DNA of 64,000 nt, taken from Terriglobales bacterium. GTDB lineage: Bacteria > Acidobacteriota > Terriglobia > Terriglobales > Acidobacteriaceae. The notes under the pieces were generated by a model, which worked only from the letters and a program-made list of their open reading frames with translations, was not told the DNA's origin and searched no databases. A program made the translations under genes and the position numbers. Shown here piece by piece: positions 23,761-34,074 of the stretch (its first letter is position 1; every line of letters starts with the position of its first letter). The stretch spans positions 1-64,000 of the forward strand of contig JANWKU010000109.1 in assembly GCA_025451215.1 (NCBI GenBank). The letters are read 5' to 3'.

Positions 23761-26700
23761 TTAGTGCGACGCGTGGCGCGCGCTTGCTCTGTGCGAAGAA
23801 GATGTCGGAGCGGCGGCAGGAATTTGCAGTCGTTGCGACGGATCGCCGAGCAAAATAAATGAACGGCGAACATCGGAATCAGTGATGGCACCCTTTGCCG
23901 CCTGGATTGCGTCGCCAATCGTTTCTCCGGGAGTAAACACGGCACTTGTGAACGTTTGGTCCATTTGGAATTGCGGCCCAGGCGAAGTCAGCGAGGACGA
24001 CGCCCAAACCGCGACGGCGCCGCCGTTATTGGCCAGTAATAGAGACTCGGCCATGCTTACCGTATAGACATCCTGGAAATATCCGTTCAGGCAATTCATA
24101 ATCACGAAAACGGGCAAGCGCGGTCCATTGGTTAATGACGATGCGAGCGCGCTGGTCAGCAGGTTTTCATCCGACCACACTTCGACCGATCCGTGCCCGT
24201 CATAGTTGACCAGCAATGCACCGTTGTTGATGCCATTCAAAACCGCTTGCTGTGCGGCACTCGCGGTCATCGAACTAGCGAATACATCCGTGGCGGAAAT
24301 AGAAGGGGGTAACAGAGACTGGATGGTCTGCGCCTGTTGCGAGAAAGGTACTACGCTGTCATCCTTGTCCGCCACCATCAAGGCCTGGCTACTCCATGTT
24401 CCGGCATTTTGACCGCTGTCATATCCCACGATCTTCCCCACGACGGTTTGCGCTTCGTCGGCGGTCTGCACGGGCAGACGTCCCGTGGAAATTTGGGCAA
24501 GGCCAGCGCCGGTGAAATCGGAGAACCAGTCATCGGAAGCGGTAGTCAATTCGGCGGTAGGGACCAGCGCCGTAGGCACGAAGTCGAAGTTGCCGAACCC
24601 GAGATAATTCCGCGGATCAATGGATGCGTCCCCGACTAATAGAAGATATTTGGGAGCGTGCTTCCAGACTTTGGTTGCGTTCTGCAGAAATGTCCGAATG
24701 CTGGCGGGATCCTTTTCACCAAAATTGAATTCGTCGTAGATGTCCTGCACATTGATGAGTGCGACGGTGTGTCCCTGGCTCTGGCGCAATTGCACCAGTG
24801 GAGCCATCTGGGTCAAAAAGTCTGGCGCGGAAATCATGACCAGGTCAGCGCCGGACTGCGCATTGTGCCAATTGGAAGGCTGGTTCGCGGTAATGCTTGC
24901 GGGCTGGCCGATCTGATCGTCCGCCAGGGCCAATATCTGGTGCGTCACCGATTGGAAGCCGGCGACATTGATATCCAGAGCAATGTTTCCTGACTGTGTG
25001 CGCACGCGGAAAGGCAATTCCAGGGGCGCTCCGGGATTTGTGATGTCGAGCACTTGCGTGGGCGTCTGCTGGAAGTTCTTCACGGTCACTAGATCTCCGC
25101 CCTGGGCCGTGAATTTAAGCGTGTCTGATTCCGCCGTATAGCTGCGCGGATACGTCAGCGTAATGTGGTCTACCAGGCTGAGGTCTTCTTCCCCATTTTG
25201 CGCGGTCAGGGTCACGGTATCGCTGCCTTGCTGCAATGAATCATAAGGAACGGTGAAATCAGCCGTGCCTTCATCCTCGTTGGAGAATTGCATATCGCCC
25301 AGGGACGTGCCGTTGAAGCTGACGGTCACATCGTGGACAATTTCATCTCTACCGCCCTGCAACACGACTTCCAGTTTGGCCCCGTCACCACTCGGCGCAA
25401 GGTCCGGAGTATTCAGTACCTGGTCAACGGGTGTGGATGAAACTAGCGCTCCGAAGAAGTGGTCAGTATCGGTGCGTAGTAATGCTGCGAAGAATGTTGT
25501 CTTCTCCTGGAGCTCGACGGTCTGGGGGAAGCTTTGCGATTGCTGCCCGGAATGCGAGACGACCGCGTACCGGATGCGCGCGCCTGTTTGGTTGCCGGAA
25601 ACCAGCCAGTAGATTCTCTGGTTCGAGAAAGCCGTATCAATTCCGGTTCCGTAGAATTGAATTGCGGCCTGCCGACCAAAGCCGCCGAATCCGCCGCGGC
25701 TTCCAGTCAGCAGGATCGGCTGTTCAACTCCTTCGGCAAACAATTGCAGCGTGTCAGGATTCACGGAGGGGTTCAGTCCCGCGGCCACAAGCTGCGCCTG
25801 CGTGACGCGATACCAGCCTTCATGATCAATGGCGATCTTAATCGCCGGTCCCGCCGCGATCTGAAATTGCGTCTGCTTCGCGGTTGGCGTGCGCCAGAGC
25901 ACAGGCACGGCCTTCTTTAAATGGCTGATGGATGAATCCGAAGGAGCAGTTGAACTGTTGAAATTCGCGATGGTTACGGATGATTGCGGCAAGGAAGGTT
26001 GGCCCAACGAAGATTGCGACGATACGCTCTGGCCCATTGCGCGTGATCTGCCGTTCATGTTCCGAGCAATCGAGGGATCCATCAGGCTGGATGGCGCGCT
26101 CTCAACCGCGATCGGGCCATGCAGCGTTCTGGTGCCGTTCAAATCCACGTCTTCAAGCCAGTAAGAATTTGCGGGAGCGTTGCGGTCAAGCCATGCATAA
26201 CTCTTGCCTGAGTGGCGCGAGTCGGCGCGGCGCATCATGAGGCTTGATCCGGCGATCAGCGACGGATTCACGCGGACGCGCCGGCCATTCTGATCCCGAT
26301 AGACATTAAAGCCGAGATTGCGAACTTCTCCGCCCGTTCTCCAGGTAAGCAGCACGCCCCCTGCCGTGGATATCGCCGAAAAAGATTGCAGTTTGACCTC
26401 GGTGGTGAAGGTGATGGTGGAAAGGAATGTGGAAGTGTTATTGGCCAGCACCGAATCAAATTGTGCCGCCGTAACGGTCGCGGTGTTGCTCACCTGGGCA
26501 GGGACACCTGCGACTACTTGGATATTAAATACGACGGTGGCATTTAGGGCTAACGATGCCGCAGTGCAAGTAACGGTCCGGGTGAGGGCCACATAACTGC
26601 ACCCCGCCGAGGCGGAACTAAATGTAACGCCTGTCGGCAGTACGTCCGTGGCAGTCACCGTCGTCGCCGTAGAAGGCCCGTTGTTGTGCGCCGTAAGAAT

Positions 26701-29700
26701 GTAGCTAAATGTCGTTCCCTGCTTTACCGGATTGGCGGAGGCAGTTTTAACGATTGAAATCTCGGCACTTGCGCCAATCACCGTGGTCACGGAAGAAGTA
26801 TTGTTCGCGGAGGTGGGATCGGTCTGAGATGCGCTGACCACGGCGGTATTCACCGCGGAACCAACAGTCTGCGCAATCACTGAAATGGTAAACACAGCCG
26901 TTGCATTCACTGCGAGGCTAGCGGCCGTACAGGTCACTGTTCCGGCACTGAATGAACATCCTCCACTGGCAGAGCTGAAGCTCACTTGCGAAGGCAGAGT
27001 GTCGGTGACAACAATGGTGGTGGCAACGGTTGGGCCGTTGTTTTTCGCGGTCAGCGTGTAAGTAATCGTGTCGCCTTGATTCGCCGTCGCGGGCCCGGTT
27101 TTGGTAATGGACATATCAGACGCGGGAAGGATGGTCGTAGATGCGCTGGCGGTATTGTTGACCAGGTTGTAGTCGGCCTCGTTTTCAGTAACGTTCGCGG
27201 TATTGGTTACCGTTCCCACAGCCGCCGCGACTACGTTGATGGTGATCGCAGGGGTGGACGCTCCAGCGGCAAGAGTTGCAAAGTTGCAAGTGACTGTGCC
27301 CGCGGCTTGCGTACAGCTCGCGGCCGGCGTGACCGACGAGAATGTAACGCCGGCTGGAAGTGTATCCACCAATTGGACCGCACTGGCTGCAGTGGCGCCG
27401 TTGTTGGTGATGCCAAGCGAATACGAGAACGTACTACCCAGGAGAGCAGTGGCCGGGGCTGTCTTGGTAACCGCCACGTCAATACAGGTCGCGCTGAAGT
27501 GCGGCCCGGGCGTGGACGCATAAGTAATATTGGTCGCGCTGGTTCCCGCCTGGCCGTCGGTTGCACCATATTGAAACTGGCCGGGAGCAGGCAAAGTTGT
27601 TCCATGCGTACCTGCGGCAATATTGACAGTGCCCGCACCGGAAAGCAGCACTACACCACCACCGCCGCCACCGCCGGGTCCATGGCGGTCCGCGATCGGA
27701 GGACCAGCAGCCGCGTCATCATCCCATGCGTCGCCGCCGCTTCCACCCGCGGCGTTGGCGGTTAACGTACCTACCGCGCCTCCGGTGGAGAGGACGATTA
27801 CCGTGCCCCCAGCGCCGCCGCCACCGCCTGCATCGTTAGAGGTCAGATCGTAAGCGTTTGCGCCGTTTGCCGACATCGTTCCAGTTCCAGTGATGCTGCC
27901 CGCGCGAACGATAATGATGCCGCCGCCCGCGGCTCCACTACTGGCCTGGGCGATTCGGGTAGAAGCCGCTCCTGCTACGTTGTTATTGCTATTGTTGCGC
28001 GAGCCTGCACCGCCGCCGCCGCCCATTGTCACCCGGCCCGAACTTGACGGGAAAGGCGAACCGCCAAGTCCGCCCACGCTTAAATTGGAATCCCATGCAT
28101 CACCGCCGAAACCGCCCGCGCCACCGTTGGCTCCGCCGCCGCCGCCGGAATTCTGGTCATTCGCAGTATTCGCATCGGTCCCACCACCACCAGCATTGCC
28201 CGGCGCGCCGCGTCCCATACCGCCATTGGGATATCCATCCACTCCGGTGGAGAACGGTGTGTTCGCGACTTCCAGCCACATTGGAGTGCCGGCAATACCT
28301 TCGCCTTTCGAACCATCAATGCCGGTAACCGGAACCCCGGTAAATGCAGGACCAGCAGGGTAGGTCGTGGGCGAAGCTTGCCGATAGTCATTTGTACTCG
28401 AACCAGCAACGCCGCCATCGAGCATGAGCCCAGCAGCGCCACGAAAACCTAGGCCGTCCACATTGATGGTCTGGGTGTTCAACGTAAGCGCGCCTGAAGT
28501 ATCAAGAACGAAAATGCCGCCAGTGGAGCCGTTCCATGCCGCAGCGGTAAGTCCAGCGCCGAGTGTTGCGGTCGCAAAATGAGGAACACGCACCACCTGG
28601 AAGGTGCGCTGGCCTTGCGTTCCAGAGGCTGCAGCAGAGTTATATCCGAACAACAGGCCGCCACCGGGTCCAGCCCCGGCAATACTCAAGGTGCCGCCGC
28701 CGACCGGAACCGCACTGGTAGCCGTAGCGAATTCATAAATTCCGGCGTTATTCAGGTTCGTCCAACCGGAGCCCGTCGAGCCATCGCCGTAGGTGCCGTC
28801 GTTATTGGAACTGATCGCTGCATCCTGCATTTGAATTATTAAAACTTCATCGCCGGAAGCGATCGGAGTGGCGCTTCCCGTTGCGGTTCCCAGCGTGATG
28901 GAAGTCGCTCCCGCGGCAACATTCGAACTGCCAGGGTAATAAGTATTGATGACGCCGGTCAGGGTGCCGCCAGCCGTCGCGGTAGGAATGGTGCAGACGT
29001 TCAACTGCGAGTAGCCGATGCCAGTGGAGGAATTGTTGCCAGTGTCGAGATCAGTCACAGTTCCCGTAACGGACACGGTATCGGGATACCCTCCACCTTG
29101 GGTTGGTGTGGCGACAATCGTGACGGTGGAACTTGCGCCGCTGCCGAGCGTACCGAGATTGCAGGTCACCACGCTTCCAACGTGCCCGCATCCCGTGCCG
29201 GTCACGGAAACGAATGTCAGTCCGGAAGGTAGTGTGTCTGTCACCGTAGCGCCTGTGGCCGTGCTGGGCCCATTATTAGTGACCACCGCCGTGTAAGTAA
29301 TATTTCCCGGGAAGGCAACGGCGGTGCCGCTCACCGCGACCGACAAGTCGGCTTGAAAAGGCCGCACGGATACCGCTCCGGCAGACCAATTGGAGTTTGC
29401 ATTGAAGGTCTCACTTAAGGGAACATTAGCGGCGCCCGCGCGCGTGGAGCCGGTGCCGTAAACGTCGGTGGTCGCTGCGCCCGACGTGCCCGTCCAAGCT
29501 TGCGTCTGCGTGGGGCCGTAGGCTGTAACTGAGTCAGTGCCGGCAATGGTGAGCGTGTCCACCACAGTATCGCCATTGGCGCTGGGAACGTTGAGCGTCG
29601 CAATCGCGGCAGCCGCGCCGTCGCCGGAGGTGAATCCGCGAATGGGCGAGGTTTGGTCTGCGCCCGTGACGTTAGTTGCGCCAACAATTGTGCCGACCAC

Positions 29701-31155
29701 TCCAGTTCCACCTGGAAGATCTAAGTTCACGACAACATTATTCGTGCCGGTGGCAGGGGCGACTAAATACCAGATCTCAACTCGCCGCGAATTGCCTGTG
29801 TCGTTGTGTGCTCCAGCCAGGGTGAGAGCTACTCCGTTATATGTAACGCTGCTCACCGTCGCACCCGTATTGCCGGTAATGTTCATGGACACACCGACAA
29901 CCAGGACATTGTTGGTCCCAGCTACGGTCGCTGGAACCGTGATAGGAACAGTTGCAGGGTTAATGGAAATCGCGCCGATCGCCCAGCTCTGCGTCGCAGG
30001 AACCGCTGTGTCCGACATAGTGACACTGGCGGCCCCAGGCTCGGTAGAACCGAAGCCGTACACGTCGGTGCCCTGCACAGCCGCAGTAGAATTTTGTCCC
30101 CATATGCCGGTCTGCCCGGCGCCAGCACTGGCGGTTTCATCGCCGGAAAGCGCGGAGGTATCAATGACCATTGCGCCGACGCTGCTTGTAACTACCACCG
30201 AGGGACTACCCGTATTTCCAACGCTTCCAGCAAAAGTTCCAACCGGGGTGGACTGACTTACATTTGTGAATGAGGCAACGCCCACCACTGCGCCGACCCT
30301 AGTTCCGTTCGTACCTGTAAAGCTGACAACGATACTATTGGCACCGGCGGGGGGATTGAGAACGCGATACATTTGCACTCTGCGACGATTTAGCGCATCC
30401 GTCTCAGTACCTAATGCAGTCACAGTTGCTGCTCCGTCGGTTACCGTGTTGACGGCGACGTTGGTTCTGGCTTGATGGTTAAGAGAAACTCCTATAATCA
30501 AAAGGCGATTGGCAGTCGCACTAACAGTCAGAGGAACCGTAATGCTGGTGGTGCCCGTATGTATTTCTGCCCCTACCGAATTTGCAGCATCAAAAGCGAC
30601 CTGTGCAAACGAAGCGCCTGCAAACGCAGCCAACGCGAAAAGAAGGAAGACCAACCGCCGGAAAATAAAAACGCTGCGGAACGTTCCCAGCTTGCACGAG
30701 GTGCGCACCTGACGAATTTTCCCAGCTACTTTACTCTTTGCCATAGAAATGTTCCGCTTTATCCGCGACACGGTTCCATATAAAGAGACAGTGCAGACAC
30801 CCCCGCTTAGAGCCTCTTCCTTAGCGACCACCCGCCCAAGAATCTGTTCTGCGCGAATGCTACCGTCATCTTCAAGTGATGCATCTCCGCGAGTGATCAA
30901 AATATTTCTAGCTGCATCCATCGCGGCCAACCGATGCACACGGAAACCCCGCTCATCCTTGAACAAAACAATGTCTCCGACTGAGAGGATCCGGGTATTC
31001 ACTCGTTCCACGCGCAGCACTTCGCCATCGCGAATCGTGGGCGACATGCTCGCGCCAACCGCGCGAAAGCAGAAGCTCTTCCCGCCGCTCATCAGCTCGC
31101 CGGCAAGTTCATTAAATAAATTCGAGTCAGGCCTATCTTGGGCGCTGGAATTCAA
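23761..31155 (-). CDS. Giant S26-like / DUF11 / gingipain-type C25 peptidase protein
   Basis: One open frame of 2464 residues. It begins at TTG 31155 behind GGAG and overlaps the kinase gene by 23 nt. Residues 1-135 are a signal-peptidase-like S26 domain with Ser36 (GASMSPT), His74 (FRVHRL) and Asp91 (ITRGDAS), the Ser-His-Asp set of the SipW/ER type. A second possible start at ATG 30744 (residue 138) opens a basic segment and signal-like helix ending ASFAQ. Then follow two long beta repeats (about 185-600), a DUF11 repeat near 605, a Gly-rich stretch (975-1170), three more DUF11 repeats (1225-1578) and a fibronectin-like part. A C25 peptidase (about 2095-2445) ends the protein, with His2321 (YDGHGS) and Cys2355 (MNCLNG). 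No sorting tail is seen. It may be one fusion or two overlapping products. Confidence 0.85.
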   Translation of the reverse strand: MNSSAQDRPDSNLFNELAGELMSGGKSFCFRAVGASMSPTIRDGEVLRVERVNTRILSVGDIVLFKDERGFRVHRLAAMDAARNILITRGDASLEDDGSIRAEQILGRVVAKEEALSGGVCTVSLYGTVSRIKRNISMAKSKVAGKIRQVRTSCKLGTFRSVFIFRRLVFLLFALAAFAGASFAQVAFDAANSVGAEIHTGTTSITVPLTVSATANRLLIIGVSLNHQARTNVAVNTVTDGAATVTALGTETDALNRRRVQMYRVLNPPAGANSIVVSFTGTNGTRVGAVVGVASFTNVSQSTPVGTFAGSVGNTGSPSVVVTSSVGAMVIDTSALSGDETASAGAGQTGIWGQNSTAAVQGTDVYGFGSTEPGAASVTMSDTAVPATQSWAIGAISINPATVPITVPATVAGTNNVLVVGVSMNITGNTGATVSSVTYNGVALTLAGAHNDTGNSRRVEIWYLVAPATGTNNVVVNLDLPGGTGVVGTIVGATNVTGADQTSPIRGFTSGDGAAAAIATLNVPSANGDTVVDTLTIAGTDSVTAYGPTQTQAWTGTSGAATTDVYGTGSTRAGAANVPLSETFNANSNWSAGAVSVRPFQADLSVAVSGTAVAFPGNITYTAVVTNNGPSTATGATVTDTLPSGLTFVSVTGTGCGHVGSVVTCNLGTLGSGASSTVTIVATPTQGGGYPDTVSVTGTVTDLDTGNNSSTGIGYSQLNVCTIPTATAGGTLTGVINTYYPGSSNVAAGATSITLGTATGSATPIASGDEVLIIQMQDAAISSNNDGTYGDGSTGSGWTNLNNAGIYEFATATSAVPVGGGTLSIAGAGPGGGLLFGYNSAAASGTQGQRTFQVVRVPHFATATLGAGLTAAAWNGSTGGIFVLDTSGALTLNTQTINVDGLGFRGAAGLMLDGGVAGSSTNDYRQASPTTYPAGPAFTGVPVTGIDGSKGEGIAGTPMWLEVANTPFSTGVDGYPNGGMGRGAPGNAGGGGTDANTANDQNSGGGGGANGGAGGFGGDAWDSNLSVGGLGGSPFPSSSGRVTMGGGGGAGSRNNSNNNVAGAASTRIAQASSGAAGGGIIIVRAGSITGTGTMSANGANAYDLTSNDAGGGGGAGGTVIVLSTGGAVGTLTANAAGGSGGDAWDDDAAAGPPIADRHGPGGGGGGGVVLLSGAGTVNIAAGTHGTTLPAPGQFQYGATDGQAGTSATNITYASTPGPHFSATCIDVAVTKTAPATALLGSTFSYSLGITNNGATAASAVQLVDTLPAGVTFSSVTPAASCTQAAGTVTCNFATLAAGASTPAITINVVAAAVGTVTNTANVTENEADYNLVNNTASASTTILPASDMSITKTGPATANQGDTITYTLTAKNNGPTVATTIVVTDTLPSQVSFSSASGGCSFSAGTVTCTAASLAVNATAVFTISVIAQTVGSAVNTAVVSASQTDPTSANNTSSVTTVIGASAEISIVKTASANPVKQGTTFSYILTAHNNGPSTATTVTATDVLPTGVTFSSASAGCSYVALTRTVTCTAASLALNATVVFNIQVVAGVPAQVSNTATVTAAQFDSVLANNTSTFLSTITFTTEVKLQSFSAISTAGGVLLTWRTGGEVRNLGFNVYRDQNGRRVRVNPSLIAGSSLMMRRADSRHSGKSYAWLDRNAPANSYWLEDVDLNGTRTLHGPIAVESAPSSLMDPSIARNMNGRSRAMGQSVSSQSSLGQPSLPQSSVTIANFNSSTAPSDSSISHLKKAVPVLWRTPTAKQTQFQIAAGPAIKIAIDHEGWYRVTQAQLVAAGLNPSVNPDTLQLFAEGVEQPILLTGSRGGFGGFGRQAAIQFYGTGIDTAFSNQRIYWLVSGNQTGARIRYAVVSHSGQQSQSFPQTVELQEKTTFFAALLRTDTDHFFGALVSSTPVDQVLNTPDLAPSGDGAKLEVVLQGGRDEIVHDVTVSFNGTSLGDMQFSNEDEGTADFTVPYDSLQQGSDTVTLTAQNGEEDLSLVDHITLTYPRSYTAESDTLKFTAQGGDLVTVKNFQQTPTQVLDITNPGAPLELPFRVRTQSGNIALDINVAGFQSVTHQILALADDQIGQPASITANQPSNWHNAQSGADLVMISAPDFLTQMAPLVQLRQSQGHTVALINVQDIYDEFNFGEKDPASIRTFLQNATKVWKHAPKYLLLVGDASIDPRNYLGFGNFDFVPTALVPTAELTTASDDWFSDFTGAGLAQISTGRLPVQTADEAQTVVGKIVGYDSGQNAGTWSSQALMVADKDDSVVPFSQQAQTIQSLLPPSISATDVFASSMTASAAQQAVLNGINNGALLVNYDGHGSVEVWSDENLLTSALASSLTNGPRLPVFVIMNCLNGYFQDVYTVSMAESLLLANNGGAVAVWASSSLTSPGPQFQMDQTFTSAVFTPGETIGDAIQAAKGAITDSDVRRSFILLGDPSQRLQIPAAAPTSSSHRASARHASH
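27640..28230 (-). repeat. Gly-rich low-complexity coding stretch
   Basis: Within the giant protein gene, clusters of GGN codons (seen as GCC/ACC/TCC runs on the plus strand) encode blocks of five to seven glycines separated by Ala, Asn and Asp. Examples are DQNSGGGGGANGGAGG and GPGGGGGGGVVLL. It corresponds to residues of about 975-1170. The repeats are irregular in length and in frame with the protein, so this is a flexible linker or parallel-beta glycine-rich region, not a satellite or CRISPR. Confidence 0.7.
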
Positions 31156-32056
31156 GGATTTTCTCCACGGCAGAGTGATTGGGGAGGAATTGGAATTTGT
31201 AACAAGCGACCGTCCGCGTCAGATCATCCAGATAAGCAAGCGTGGCAGTAAGCGCCTGCGGATCGTGAAACGGCAAGAAGCAACGTGCAAACAATTCCGC
31301 TGCTGCCGCCGCTTGCGGCATCGCGACAACGTCGTTCCGCTCCCCATGTTCCAAAATAAAAATCTGATTGATCGGAGCTTCGCGTGGCGACGCAAATCCG
31401 GCATCGCCGTGCCAGGGCGTTCCGTGCATGAAAAAACGGTCGTCACGTTTGCGGACAATAATTCGGTCATCGCTTAGGATCCGGACGCCGGGCACCGATT
31501 GCCAGAGGCGCGTGGTTGTGCTCTTTCCCGCGCCGGAGTGTCCTACAAAAAGAGAACTACTGCACGCGTCGTCGGTAATGCCGCAGCCATGCACTTCAAC
31601 GCCGCGCCCTCGCGCCAATCGGTTGGTAACGATCAATTCGTCGAGCGGGTATTCGAGCGCGCGGACATTGGCTTTGTCAGGAAAGCAATCGCGCACGAAG
31701 AGTACGCGGGCGCGAGTAAAATCCCTGTCTATTAAAAGGCGCTTATAAGGTCGCGGGCCAAGAACTCGCGTCGTGAAATCGAAAACGTAATGCTCGCCGT
31801 CCTCATAAAGCGTCCATACCGCGCCTGAATCGAAAAGTTTTTTGCTATCAGCGGGAAGGAGTGAGTCAACCCATTCCAGATCAATTTCTATTTCGCAATT
31901 TTGTGCAGGGATCGCAAACGATTGGTGATCAGGATCGAGATGAACATTCATCTCTGCGGCCGTAAAGCCCAAAGTCAGATCACCGATTTGCAAGCAACAG
32001 CGCCATTTTGCCGCCTGACTTTGATTCTCTGTTTGTGTTTGCTCGCTGATCATCAT
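31133..32056 (-). CDS. HPr-kinase-like protein (PEP carboxykinase-type P-loop kinase)
   Basis: 307 residues. The C-terminal half has a P-loop LFVGHSGAGKSTTTRLW, then RILSDDRIIVRK, where the double Asp corresponds to the HprK Walker B/catalytic region, and HGTPWHGDAGFASP, typical of HprK-like proteins without the HPr partner. The N-terminal 130 residues are not recognised. Relatives occur in RiPP clusters, and some (PadeK, ThcoK) phosphorylate a serine of a lasso-peptide precursor. Start ATG 32056 has GGAG eight bases upstream and lies 16 nt after the small peptide gene, which ends in Ser. Phosphorylation of that peptide is inference. Confidence 0.82.
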   Translation of the reverse strand: MMISEQTQTENQSQAAKWRCCLQIGDLTLGFTAAEMNVHLDPDHQSFAIPAQNCEIEIDLEWVDSLLPADSKKLFDSGAVWTLYEDGEHYVFDFTTRVLGPRPYKRLLIDRDFTRARVLFVRDCFPDKANVRALEYPLDELIVTNRLARGRGVEVHGCGITDDACSSSLFVGHSGAGKSTTTRLWQSVPGVRILSDDRIIVRKRDDRFFMHGTPWHGDAGFASPREAPINQIFILEHGERNDVVAMPQAAAAAELFARCFLPFHDPQALTATLAYLDDLTRTVACYKFQFLPNHSAVEKILEFQRPR

Positions 32057-32257: not shown

Positions 32258-33523
32258 TCAATGCCCGCAACTTCCGCAACCGCCGGAGCTGGCGGCGGAA
32301 TGATTCAAAATCGGCAGCAAAACTTCCGAAGGCCCCGTCCACTCGCCGACATTAATTTCACGGGAGGCAATCCGCAGCGCTGACTCTTTTGCCGTTTCGT
32401 AGTGGTCGCCGCCTTCACAAAAAGCACAATCCCCGTGCGCCGGGACCTGATAGCCCAACGCCATGGCGCGCAAATGGGCGACTTCGCATAAAAATTCCAC
32501 CGGCGATTCCGCATCTCCGTTTTCCAACTCGCCATTCGCCGGACACATACCGCACAGACTGCGCAGGCGGCAATCGGTGCATTTAGAGATGGTCTTTGCC
32601 TCGCGTTTTCTTACTTGCAGAAGGAACTGCTCCCATCCCTCCTTCACGGAACCCTGGCGCAGATCGTAGGTATCCGCCTTAGACAGCACGCAAATACTCA
32701 TGCGGCCGTAAGGATCAATAGAAAAGGCACCCACGCCGCCGCCACAAACATAAAGAGAATTCTTGCCCTTGCCCCTGGCTGGCGGCGGAGATTGAATTCC
32801 CTGCTCGGCGAACCGTCGGTACTCGGCCTTAGTGTCGGGCGAGTGAAGGTCGAGCGCGACCACTTCTTCCGGCAAAAGCCGCACCGCGAGTGGACTCTGC
32901 GAGCAATCAATGCGCGGATTCATCAGGGAATCGAATTTGAATTCGAGGCCGAGATCTTCCCTCACAAAACTTCGCATGGACAATACTTCATGCTTGTTCA
33001 CGGTGGTTGCGACCGTCTTCAGCTTCAGCGGCAATCCTCGGCTACGCAGCAGATTGATGCCACGCATGCAGCGCTCATAACTGCCGGGGATTTGCGTGAG
33101 CGCCTCGTAGGTTTCTTTCGTCCTGCCATAGAGCGTGATTTCAATCGCGAACGGCGGCCATTCAAGCAGATAGTCGGCGATCTTTTCATTAATCAGATTG
33201 CCGTTCGTAAACAGAGTAACGAGAAGACCTTTTTTCTTGGCGTAGGTATAGATTTCCAGAAAATCTTTTCGGGCAAAGATTTCGCCGCCGGTGAACAACA
33301 GCCAGAAGCAACCCATCTCGGTAATTTCATCGAGCAACCGAAAATATTCTTCCTTACTCAATTCGCGGTTGCGCGCGGATAAATCTCCCATCGCCAAATT
33401 GTTGTAGCAATGCTGGCATTCCAGGGGACAGCGGTGGGTCATTTCCATGGTTACTTCGAGGGGAGTGCGGTGATTAGGCTGGTGGAGCGATCGGCTTAGC
33501 TCTGTGTAACTGCCAGGATTCAT
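32258..33523 (-). CDS. Radical SAM/SPASM peptide-modifying enzyme
   Basis: 421 residues. The radical SAM cluster motif is C32-x3-C36-x2-C39 (HRCPLECQHCY). TGGEIFARKDFLEI follows as the SAM-binding GGE motif. A SPASM-type C-terminal domain carries the Cys series in VCGGGVGAFSIDPYGRMSIC, KCTDCRLRSLCGMCP and FLCEVAH, enough for auxiliary 4Fe-4S clusters. Beyond it come DCAFCEGG and a terminal GGCGSCGH that are unusual extra Cys pairs. Start ATG 33523 has GGAG five bases upstream. With a PqqD-like protein upstream and a small Cys-rich peptide downstream, it most likely installs thioether or C-C crosslinks in that peptide. Confidence 0.92.
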   Translation of the reverse strand: MNPGSYTELSRSLHQPNHRTPLEVTMEMTHRCPLECQHCYNNLAMGDLSARNRELSKEEYFRLLDEITEMGCFWLLFTGGEIFARKDFLEIYTYAKKKGLLVTLFTNGNLINEKIADYLLEWPPFAIEITLYGRTKETYEALTQIPGSYERCMRGINLLRSRGLPLKLKTVATTVNKHEVLSMRSFVREDLGLEFKFDSLMNPRIDCSQSPLAVRLLPEEVVALDLHSPDTKAEYRRFAEQGIQSPPPARGKGKNSLYVCGGGVGAFSIDPYGRMSICVLSKADTYDLRQGSVKEGWEQFLLQVRKREAKTISKCTDCRLRSLCGMCPANGELENGDAESPVEFLCEVAHLRAMALGYQVPAHGDCAFCEGGDHYETAKESALRIASREINVGEWTGPSEVLLPILNHSAASSGGCGSCGH

Positions 33524-33599: not shown

Positions 33600-33902
33600 T
33601 TAAGCTGCCATCTCGCGAACCAGTCCCGCATCCGTAATCTTGTCGAGAAAAGTCCGCACATCCTGTTCCGCCGTCTCGGGCGTTACTTCGTATTCATCCA
33701 AAACCAAGCTGACCAATTCTTCGCAAGTTTTCGCAGGCTGGAGTTGCCGCCATAAAAAACTTCCCAGTTCATTTAGGCTATAAATCGAGGCCAGATCACC
33801 CACGCCGCCGCGCACAGGAACGATGAGAGTCTCTCCTGCGATCACTCGCGCAACCACGCTATCCGACTGCATGTAACGGCAACTCGCTACGATGGTTGTC
33901 AT
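33600..33902 (-). CDS. PqqD-like peptide-recognition protein (RRE)
   Basis: I place the start at ATG 33902, with GAGG eight bases upstream, giving 100 residues; an ATG at 33965 would add 21 atypical residues. The fold pattern is a small beta-sheet (SVVARVIAGETLIVPVRGG) plus winged-helix part (YSLNELGSFLWRQL; CEELVSLVLDEYEVTPE; DVRTFLDKITDAGLV), as in PqqD. PqqD-type domains bind the leader of a precursor peptide and deliver it to the radical SAM enzyme. That enzyme is the next gene, 76 nt downstream. It is the first gene of the five-gene operon. Confidence 0.88.
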   Translation of the reverse strand: MTTIVASCRYMQSDSVVARVIAGETLIVPVRGGVGDLASIYSLNELGSFLWRQLQPAKTCEELVSLVLDEYEVTPETAEQDVRTFLDKITDAGLVREMAA

Positions 33903-34074
33903 GCTTTCTGCCTCATCTAATCGCACTCGTGCGGTGTCCAGATTCTGGATACTGCCGCTAACCATAACAAACTTTTCATACTTACATCATTTGCTAGATT
34001 GGTACCGCCCTGTTGTACCGAGGCGAGCGCTTTGGCGCCCTTGAAGGAAATTCGAGTTCGATGCGGAGGAATAT

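Follow-up and report, generated by a model that had tools for sequence, protein, structure and literature searches.

A predicted cytosolic peptidase and a predicted exported C25 protease encoded in one frame of a RiPP-type cassette from Acidobacteriaceae

The window, i.e., the whole 64,000-nucleotide stretch of DNA analysed here (Terriglobales bacterium, contig JANWKU010000109.1), contains a minus-strand open reading frame of 2464 aa (31155-23761) in which a signal-peptidase-like head is followed by a basic linker, a hydrophobic helix and a part that ends in a C25 peptidase domain. Does this frame yield one protein or two, and what could such a peptidase do ahead of a signal peptide? The initial annotation had seen a topology conflict here, with two overlapping products or a cytoplasmic leader peptidase as its possible solutions. 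Our analyses show that two neighbouring genes of a single RiPP-type cassette have become fused in this frame, and make it probable that a RiPP leader peptidase of the cytosol is thereby produced together with an exported partner as one preprotein.

The open frame and its cassette

The frame is open from a TTG codon (...GTGGAGAAAATCC-TTG) that is preceded by GGAG at normal spacing and lies inside the end of the HprK-like gene, with an overlap of 23 nt. Its head carries a Ser-His-Asp set in the SipW/ER arrangement, exactly at the residues initially annotated: Ser36 in GASMSP, His74 in VHRL and Asp91 in RGDA. Of the 47 heads compared, all have this Ser and His and 46 also the Asp, the single exception being a frame-broken contig; this catalytic set is hence not due to chance. 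The head scored 29.7 bits with Pfam Peptidase_S24 (PF00717, cut-off 23.3), above the cut-off, and stayed below the cut-offs of Pfam Peptidase_S26 (PF10502, 18.5 bits versus 22.9) and of TIGR02228, the archaeal-type signal peptidase I (3e-10, 40.1 versus 51.85). The label "S26-type" holds at the level of the S24/S26 clan. An AlphaFold model built on three sequences, of low confidence (pLDDT 58), features the N-terminal helix listed in Table 1 and has SipA, SpsB, LepB and LexA as closest structural neighbours (Z 6-7.5); Tudor-like barrels matched at similar Z, and we take the structural matches as no more than supportive. A PDB sequence search gave no match below E 0.09.

Table 1. Features of the locus in the window, and loci of the second fusion (family f27)
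Feature	Position	Strand	Remarks
PqqD-family discrete RiPP recognition element (RRE)	33603..33965	-	Pfam PF05402, 61.6 bits, above cut-off
Radical SAM/SPASM-like peptide maturase	32261..33523	-	Pfam PF04055, 66.1 bits
Precursor peptide, 58 aa	32073..32249	-	YQPP (YxxP) leader motif, ISLRPEEAVLGNCK block, two further Cys, C-terminal GS
HprK-like kinase	31133..32056	-	P-loop GHSGAGKST; TIGR04249 ScmC 1e-7, HprK_rel_B 9e-4, both below cut-offs
S24/S26-fold peptidase head, residues 1-114	30814..31155	-	TTG start; Ser36, His74, Asp91; N-terminal helix 11-22
Basic linker, residues 115-167	30655..30813	-	Net charge +12
Internal ATG, residue 138	30742..30744	-	Not conserved; unlikely to be a start
Signal-peptide-like hydrophobic helix, residues 168-184	30604..30654	-	17-residue mean hydropathy 2.36; ends S-F-A/Q
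Predicted exported part	23761..30603	-	N-terminal repeat domain, DUF11 repeats, Gly-rich region, C-terminal C25
C25 peptidase domain	23827..24840	-	PF01364
Poly_export/SLBB fusion loci of f27	L173, L174, L175, L176, L179, L180, L181		PqqD-rSAM-peptide-HprK cassette as well

No hydrophobic segment stands ahead of the head. The sole helix, which reads LVFLLFALAAFAGASFA/QV and thus ends in GASFA/QV, comes only after the basic linker, and by the positive-inside rule the head is predicted to stay in the cytoplasm; on both points we agree with the initial annotation. In the exported part, DUF11 scored 269.5 bits and C25 289 bits, with His2321 in NYDGHG (24193-24195) and Cys2355 in MNCLNG (24091-24093). 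All complete fused relatives retain both motifs but for G605, the frame of which breaks ahead of the Cys. Like the gingipain/PorU-like peptidases, the C25 domain scores above its cut-off and retains His and Cys. In contrast to them, it belongs to a protein with DUF11 repeats in which another peptidase domain precedes the signal peptide, and it misses the PorU cut-offs (T9SS sortase equivalog NF033707, 285.5 versus 420 bits). Of 100 relatives, eight have such a C25, and seven of these eight carry the cassette.

Upstream, the order PqqD-radical SAM-peptide (about 58 aa)-HprK-head is invariant in every fused locus with enough flank. The PqqD gene holds its equivalent place in nearly all relatives and the HprK-like gene in all of them, and the radical SAM protein is 59-74% identical to those of fused relatives. 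The cassette includes no exporter. An MsbA-like one and an NTP transferase are both absent from this conserved five-gene order, with farther flanks checked in part and for the window only. The precursor matches nothing in Pfam or NCBIfam. Across relatives it follows the pattern KKPYEPPxL..ISLRPEEAVLGxCK, after which come a Cys-containing core of variable sequence and a C-terminal GS; ISLRPEEAVLG (with one S/N change), CK and the terminal GS are conserved in 26 cassettes. Related precursors occur in 52, and heads in 103, of the 396 genomes of the phylum that were scanned, most of these heads being free-standing.

Fusion among relatives and in a second family

In the source family, 25 genomes belonging to 11 genera have head, linker, helix and exported part in one frame, so that the in-frame joining to C25 first read from the window is a recurrent feature. 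Complete fused proteins measure 1291-3317 aa; three fused loci (G015, G638, G494) are cut by a contig end, in each case only past the helix. In a tree of the radical SAM and HprK proteins, all fused loci fall into one clade (100 SH-aLRT). The clade contains three further loci: in G486 a contig end falls within the tail of the head, in G680 an ambiguous base interrupts the head itself, and G028, nested among the fused loci, lacks C25, its head being free-standing. Most simply, these sequences suggest that the C25 fusion arose once and was later undone once, in G028. G028 does without C25, so that this part is dispensable in some cases. The G028 locus (L041:6728-7195) consists of PqqD, radical SAM, peptide, HprK and the free-standing head, with no C25 nearby and a next gene that seems unrelated.

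The linker is the least constrained stretch of the frame, poorly conserved among the fused genomes yet open. In all 25 it is net positive (+5 to +15) and 22-62 residues long. In close fused pairs its third codon positions usually change most, and dN is lower than dS in the measurable pairs. Free-standing S26 heads carry basic C-terminal tails of net +2 to +17, and, judged from sequence, the basic linker corresponds to this tail. If the linkers were untranslated, the chance that all of them are open at the same base composition would be about 1e-16, a figure that treats the genomes as independent and is overstated since they are related. Hence the tree, the relatives with separate genes and the second fusion weigh more.

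Comparing homologues, as the initial annotation had proposed, gave a divided answer: S26 and C25 are fused inside the family, whereas outside it they are separate genes, so that homologues are not always separated. In G376, G345, G173 and G383 they are neighbours in a matching cassette, with junctions that range from an overlap through 2 nt and 92 nt to about 260 nt, and the separate C25 genes carry their own signal peptide. A Lentisphaerae MAG (L107:2-7259), found in a single-protein contig scan that yielded two loci, holds the whole cassette as separate genes in the order C25-PqqD-rSAM-peptide-HprK-S26. From these unfused cassettes outside the family it follows that C25 is a general cassette partner and that the fusion is derived.

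In family f27, the head, a basic linker and a signal-peptide-like helix are followed in one frame by a Poly_export/SLBB (Wza/SLBB) protein. This fusion is found in all seven head-bearing genomes, from four genera, among the eight f27 genomes examined (Table 1). The four f27 fusions on the radical SAM and HprK tree form a separate clade, by which the fusion of the head to a polysaccharide-export protein is independent of the C25 fusion.

Further arrangements were seen. In a related cassette of G127 (L170:4621-5655), a GNAT acetyltransferase domain is joined to the S26 head. In G437 (L178), C25 comes immediately after PqqD-rSAM-peptide-HprK, and the vicinity yielded no S26 head. The source family also has a more distant type of cassette with a free-standing head, in the order S26-HprK-PqqD-rSAM (L045:7407-10056, L047:5420-8080). 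Directly downstream of the C25 gene, the window itself contains a row of exopolysaccharide-type genes on the minus strand (321-23702), including a metallophosphoesterase, a UDP-sugar dehydrogenase, a NusG-like factor, Poly_export/SLBB, an AAA ATPase and others; G056 has the phosphoesterase and the NusG-like gene in common with it. Such genes beside the cassette are not a general rule, being clear only in the window, G056 and f27.

A proposed leader peptidase with an exported partner, and competing readings

LppS, described in 2026, is a SipW-like Ser-His-Asp leader peptidase of a Bacillota RiPP pathway (PMC13381572). It removes the leader of linear polyphosphorylated peptides (LPP) only with the RRE protein LppB, its catalytic residues are S29/H68/D93, and its N-terminal helix is predicted to contact the RRE-leader sheet; the LppS/LppB/LppK clusters were reported in capsular polysaccharide loci (PMC13381572). 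Given LppS, a cytoplasmic site does not amount to a topology conflict, and of the solutions initially offered the cytoplasmic leader peptidase is favoured, with the 58-aa peptide, to which the initial annotation had also pointed, as its likely substrate. The window cassette shares with the LPP pathway a SipW-like Ser-His-Asp peptidase (Ser-His spacing 38, versus 39 in LppS), a discrete RRE, an HprK-like kinase and a YxxP leader motif. It differs in having a radical SAM enzyme, in lacking the NTP transferase and MsbA-like exporter, and in the fusion of its peptidase to an exported C25 protein. Of the LPP precursor motif YxxPxVLxHQxIxFETxxS, the window precursor has only the YxxP part; the FET cleavage block is absent, and an LRPEEAVLG block stands instead. 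The head combines an LppS-like catalytic set with, in its low-confidence model, an N-terminal helix, and it is encoded next to a PqqD protein, a YxxP precursor and an HprK-like kinase. Most simply, it is read as a cytosolic, RRE-dependent leader peptidase.

Two other kinds of system invite comparison. SipW/Sec11 enzymes (TIGR02228), the archaeal/ER-type signal peptidases I, resemble the head in fold and Ser-His-Asp arrangement, but the head has no N-terminal membrane anchor, is predicted to be cytosolic and scores below the family cut-off. SynChlorMet (Scm) and GeoRSP cassettes share PqqD and radical SAM with the window, and Scm also the HprK-like kinase ScmC, although their models match the window genes only below cut-off. 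To our knowledge, neither of them has an S26 or C25 component.

In the pathway we propose, translation would give a single preprotein, the S24/S26 domain of which would fold in the cytosol and remove the leader of the 58-aa precursor. The precursor would be bound by the PqqD protein via YxxP and then altered by the radical SAM enzyme. The HprK-like kinase probably phosphorylates it, perhaps on the invariant C-terminal Ser; paeninodin-type kinases are a precedent for C-terminal Ser phosphorylation and, together with the invariant GS, suggest this site. Conservation likewise suggests that the leader is cleaved near AVLG. The basic linker would keep the head at the inner face of the membrane, and the following helix would be the signal peptide by which the C25 part leaves through Sec. 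The cell's own LepB probably cuts at ASFA/Q, and the head would then retain the helix as a membrane anchor. Outside, the C25 protease would be released or surface-bound, and we can only guess that it processes the exported peptide or a surface target of it. More generally, we tentatively suggest a signal peptide with a working enzyme as its N-terminal extension, from which the host signal peptidase yields a membrane-anchored cytosolic leader peptidase and an exported partner, and which arose at least twice with unrelated partners.

Alternatively, the signal anchor might stay uncleaved, with S26 inside and C25 outside as a stable bifunctional transmembrane protein that could, for example, couple leader removal to export or to processing outside. 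One gene product, one helix and two catalytic sets conserved together agree with such a protein, and it is left open by the Leu at position -3 in several fused relatives, which is unfavourable for LepB. However, the helix ends in a small residue followed by Q ([A/G/S]/Q) in 24 of the 25 fused relatives, as in a cleaved signal peptide, and the separate C25 relatives bear ordinary signal peptides. We consider the uncleaved anchor unlikely.

Somewhat less probable still is that one frame gives two products, the head being ended by internal termination or proteolysis and the C25 preprotein initiated at ATG 30744 or a similar codon. The initial annotation had pointed to this ATG, the codon of which (30744-30742) sits at the edge of the range 30744-31155 that it had described. 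The ATG exists, with GGAA about 10 nt upstream, and would yield a 47-residue signal peptide ending at the identical site; unfused relatives do use separate C25 starts there. Yet it is not conserved: the linker is devoid of any ATG in eight of the 25 fused genomes, in G029 no start codon comes later than the GTG in the head's GRV motif, and in f27 the linker of G293, the frame of which shifts later, has no ATG, GTG or TTG between head and helix. Pairs of a start codon with a Shine-Dalgarno sequence are no more frequent in the linkers than expected from codon shuffling (24 observed versus 21.5), and no stop interrupts the stretch between the two domains in any of the 25 genomes, although one there would do no harm. 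Pairs of ATG with Shine-Dalgarno alone number nine versus 5.4 expected, so that some genomes may have internal starts; in general, the whole frame is most probably translated as a single product.

The fold and Ser-His-Asp set of SipW/Sec11 could also indicate an export-side signal peptidase for the C25 part or other exported proteins. We reject this as very improbable, as the head has no N-terminal membrane helix, basic residues precede the sole helix, two ordinary LepB-type enzymes are encoded elsewhere in the source genome, and the head is tightly linked to PqqD, radical SAM and HprK. Finally, the assembly is a draft of 232 contigs, but an artefact that hides a stop codon, for which residues 130 to 138 had been considered, is excluded by 25 genomes, each assembled separately, that have the identical open fusion, among them G029 and G501 with contigs of > 2 Mb and 838 kb, respectively.

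Significance for peptide cassettes

All parts of the locus are of known kinds. Our literature search covered open-licence papers, the silence of which is weak evidence of absence; in these we found nothing on the precursor motif or on a link of C25 with radical SAM and PqqD, and no paper with a radical SAM plus C25 cassette or with a repeated fusion that places a predicted cytosolic peptidase before a signal peptide.

The preprotein reading would extend the SipW-like RiPP leader peptidases, themselves a discovery of 2026, past Bacillota to radical SAM cassettes in another phylum, and would tie them to a giant exported C25 protease. The locus is also a clear example of an enzyme, predicted to be cytosolic, that precedes a signal peptide within a single frame, an arrangement reached twice independently. 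Both the handling of such preproteins by the host and the coupling of peptide maturation to an exported partner may thereby become testable.
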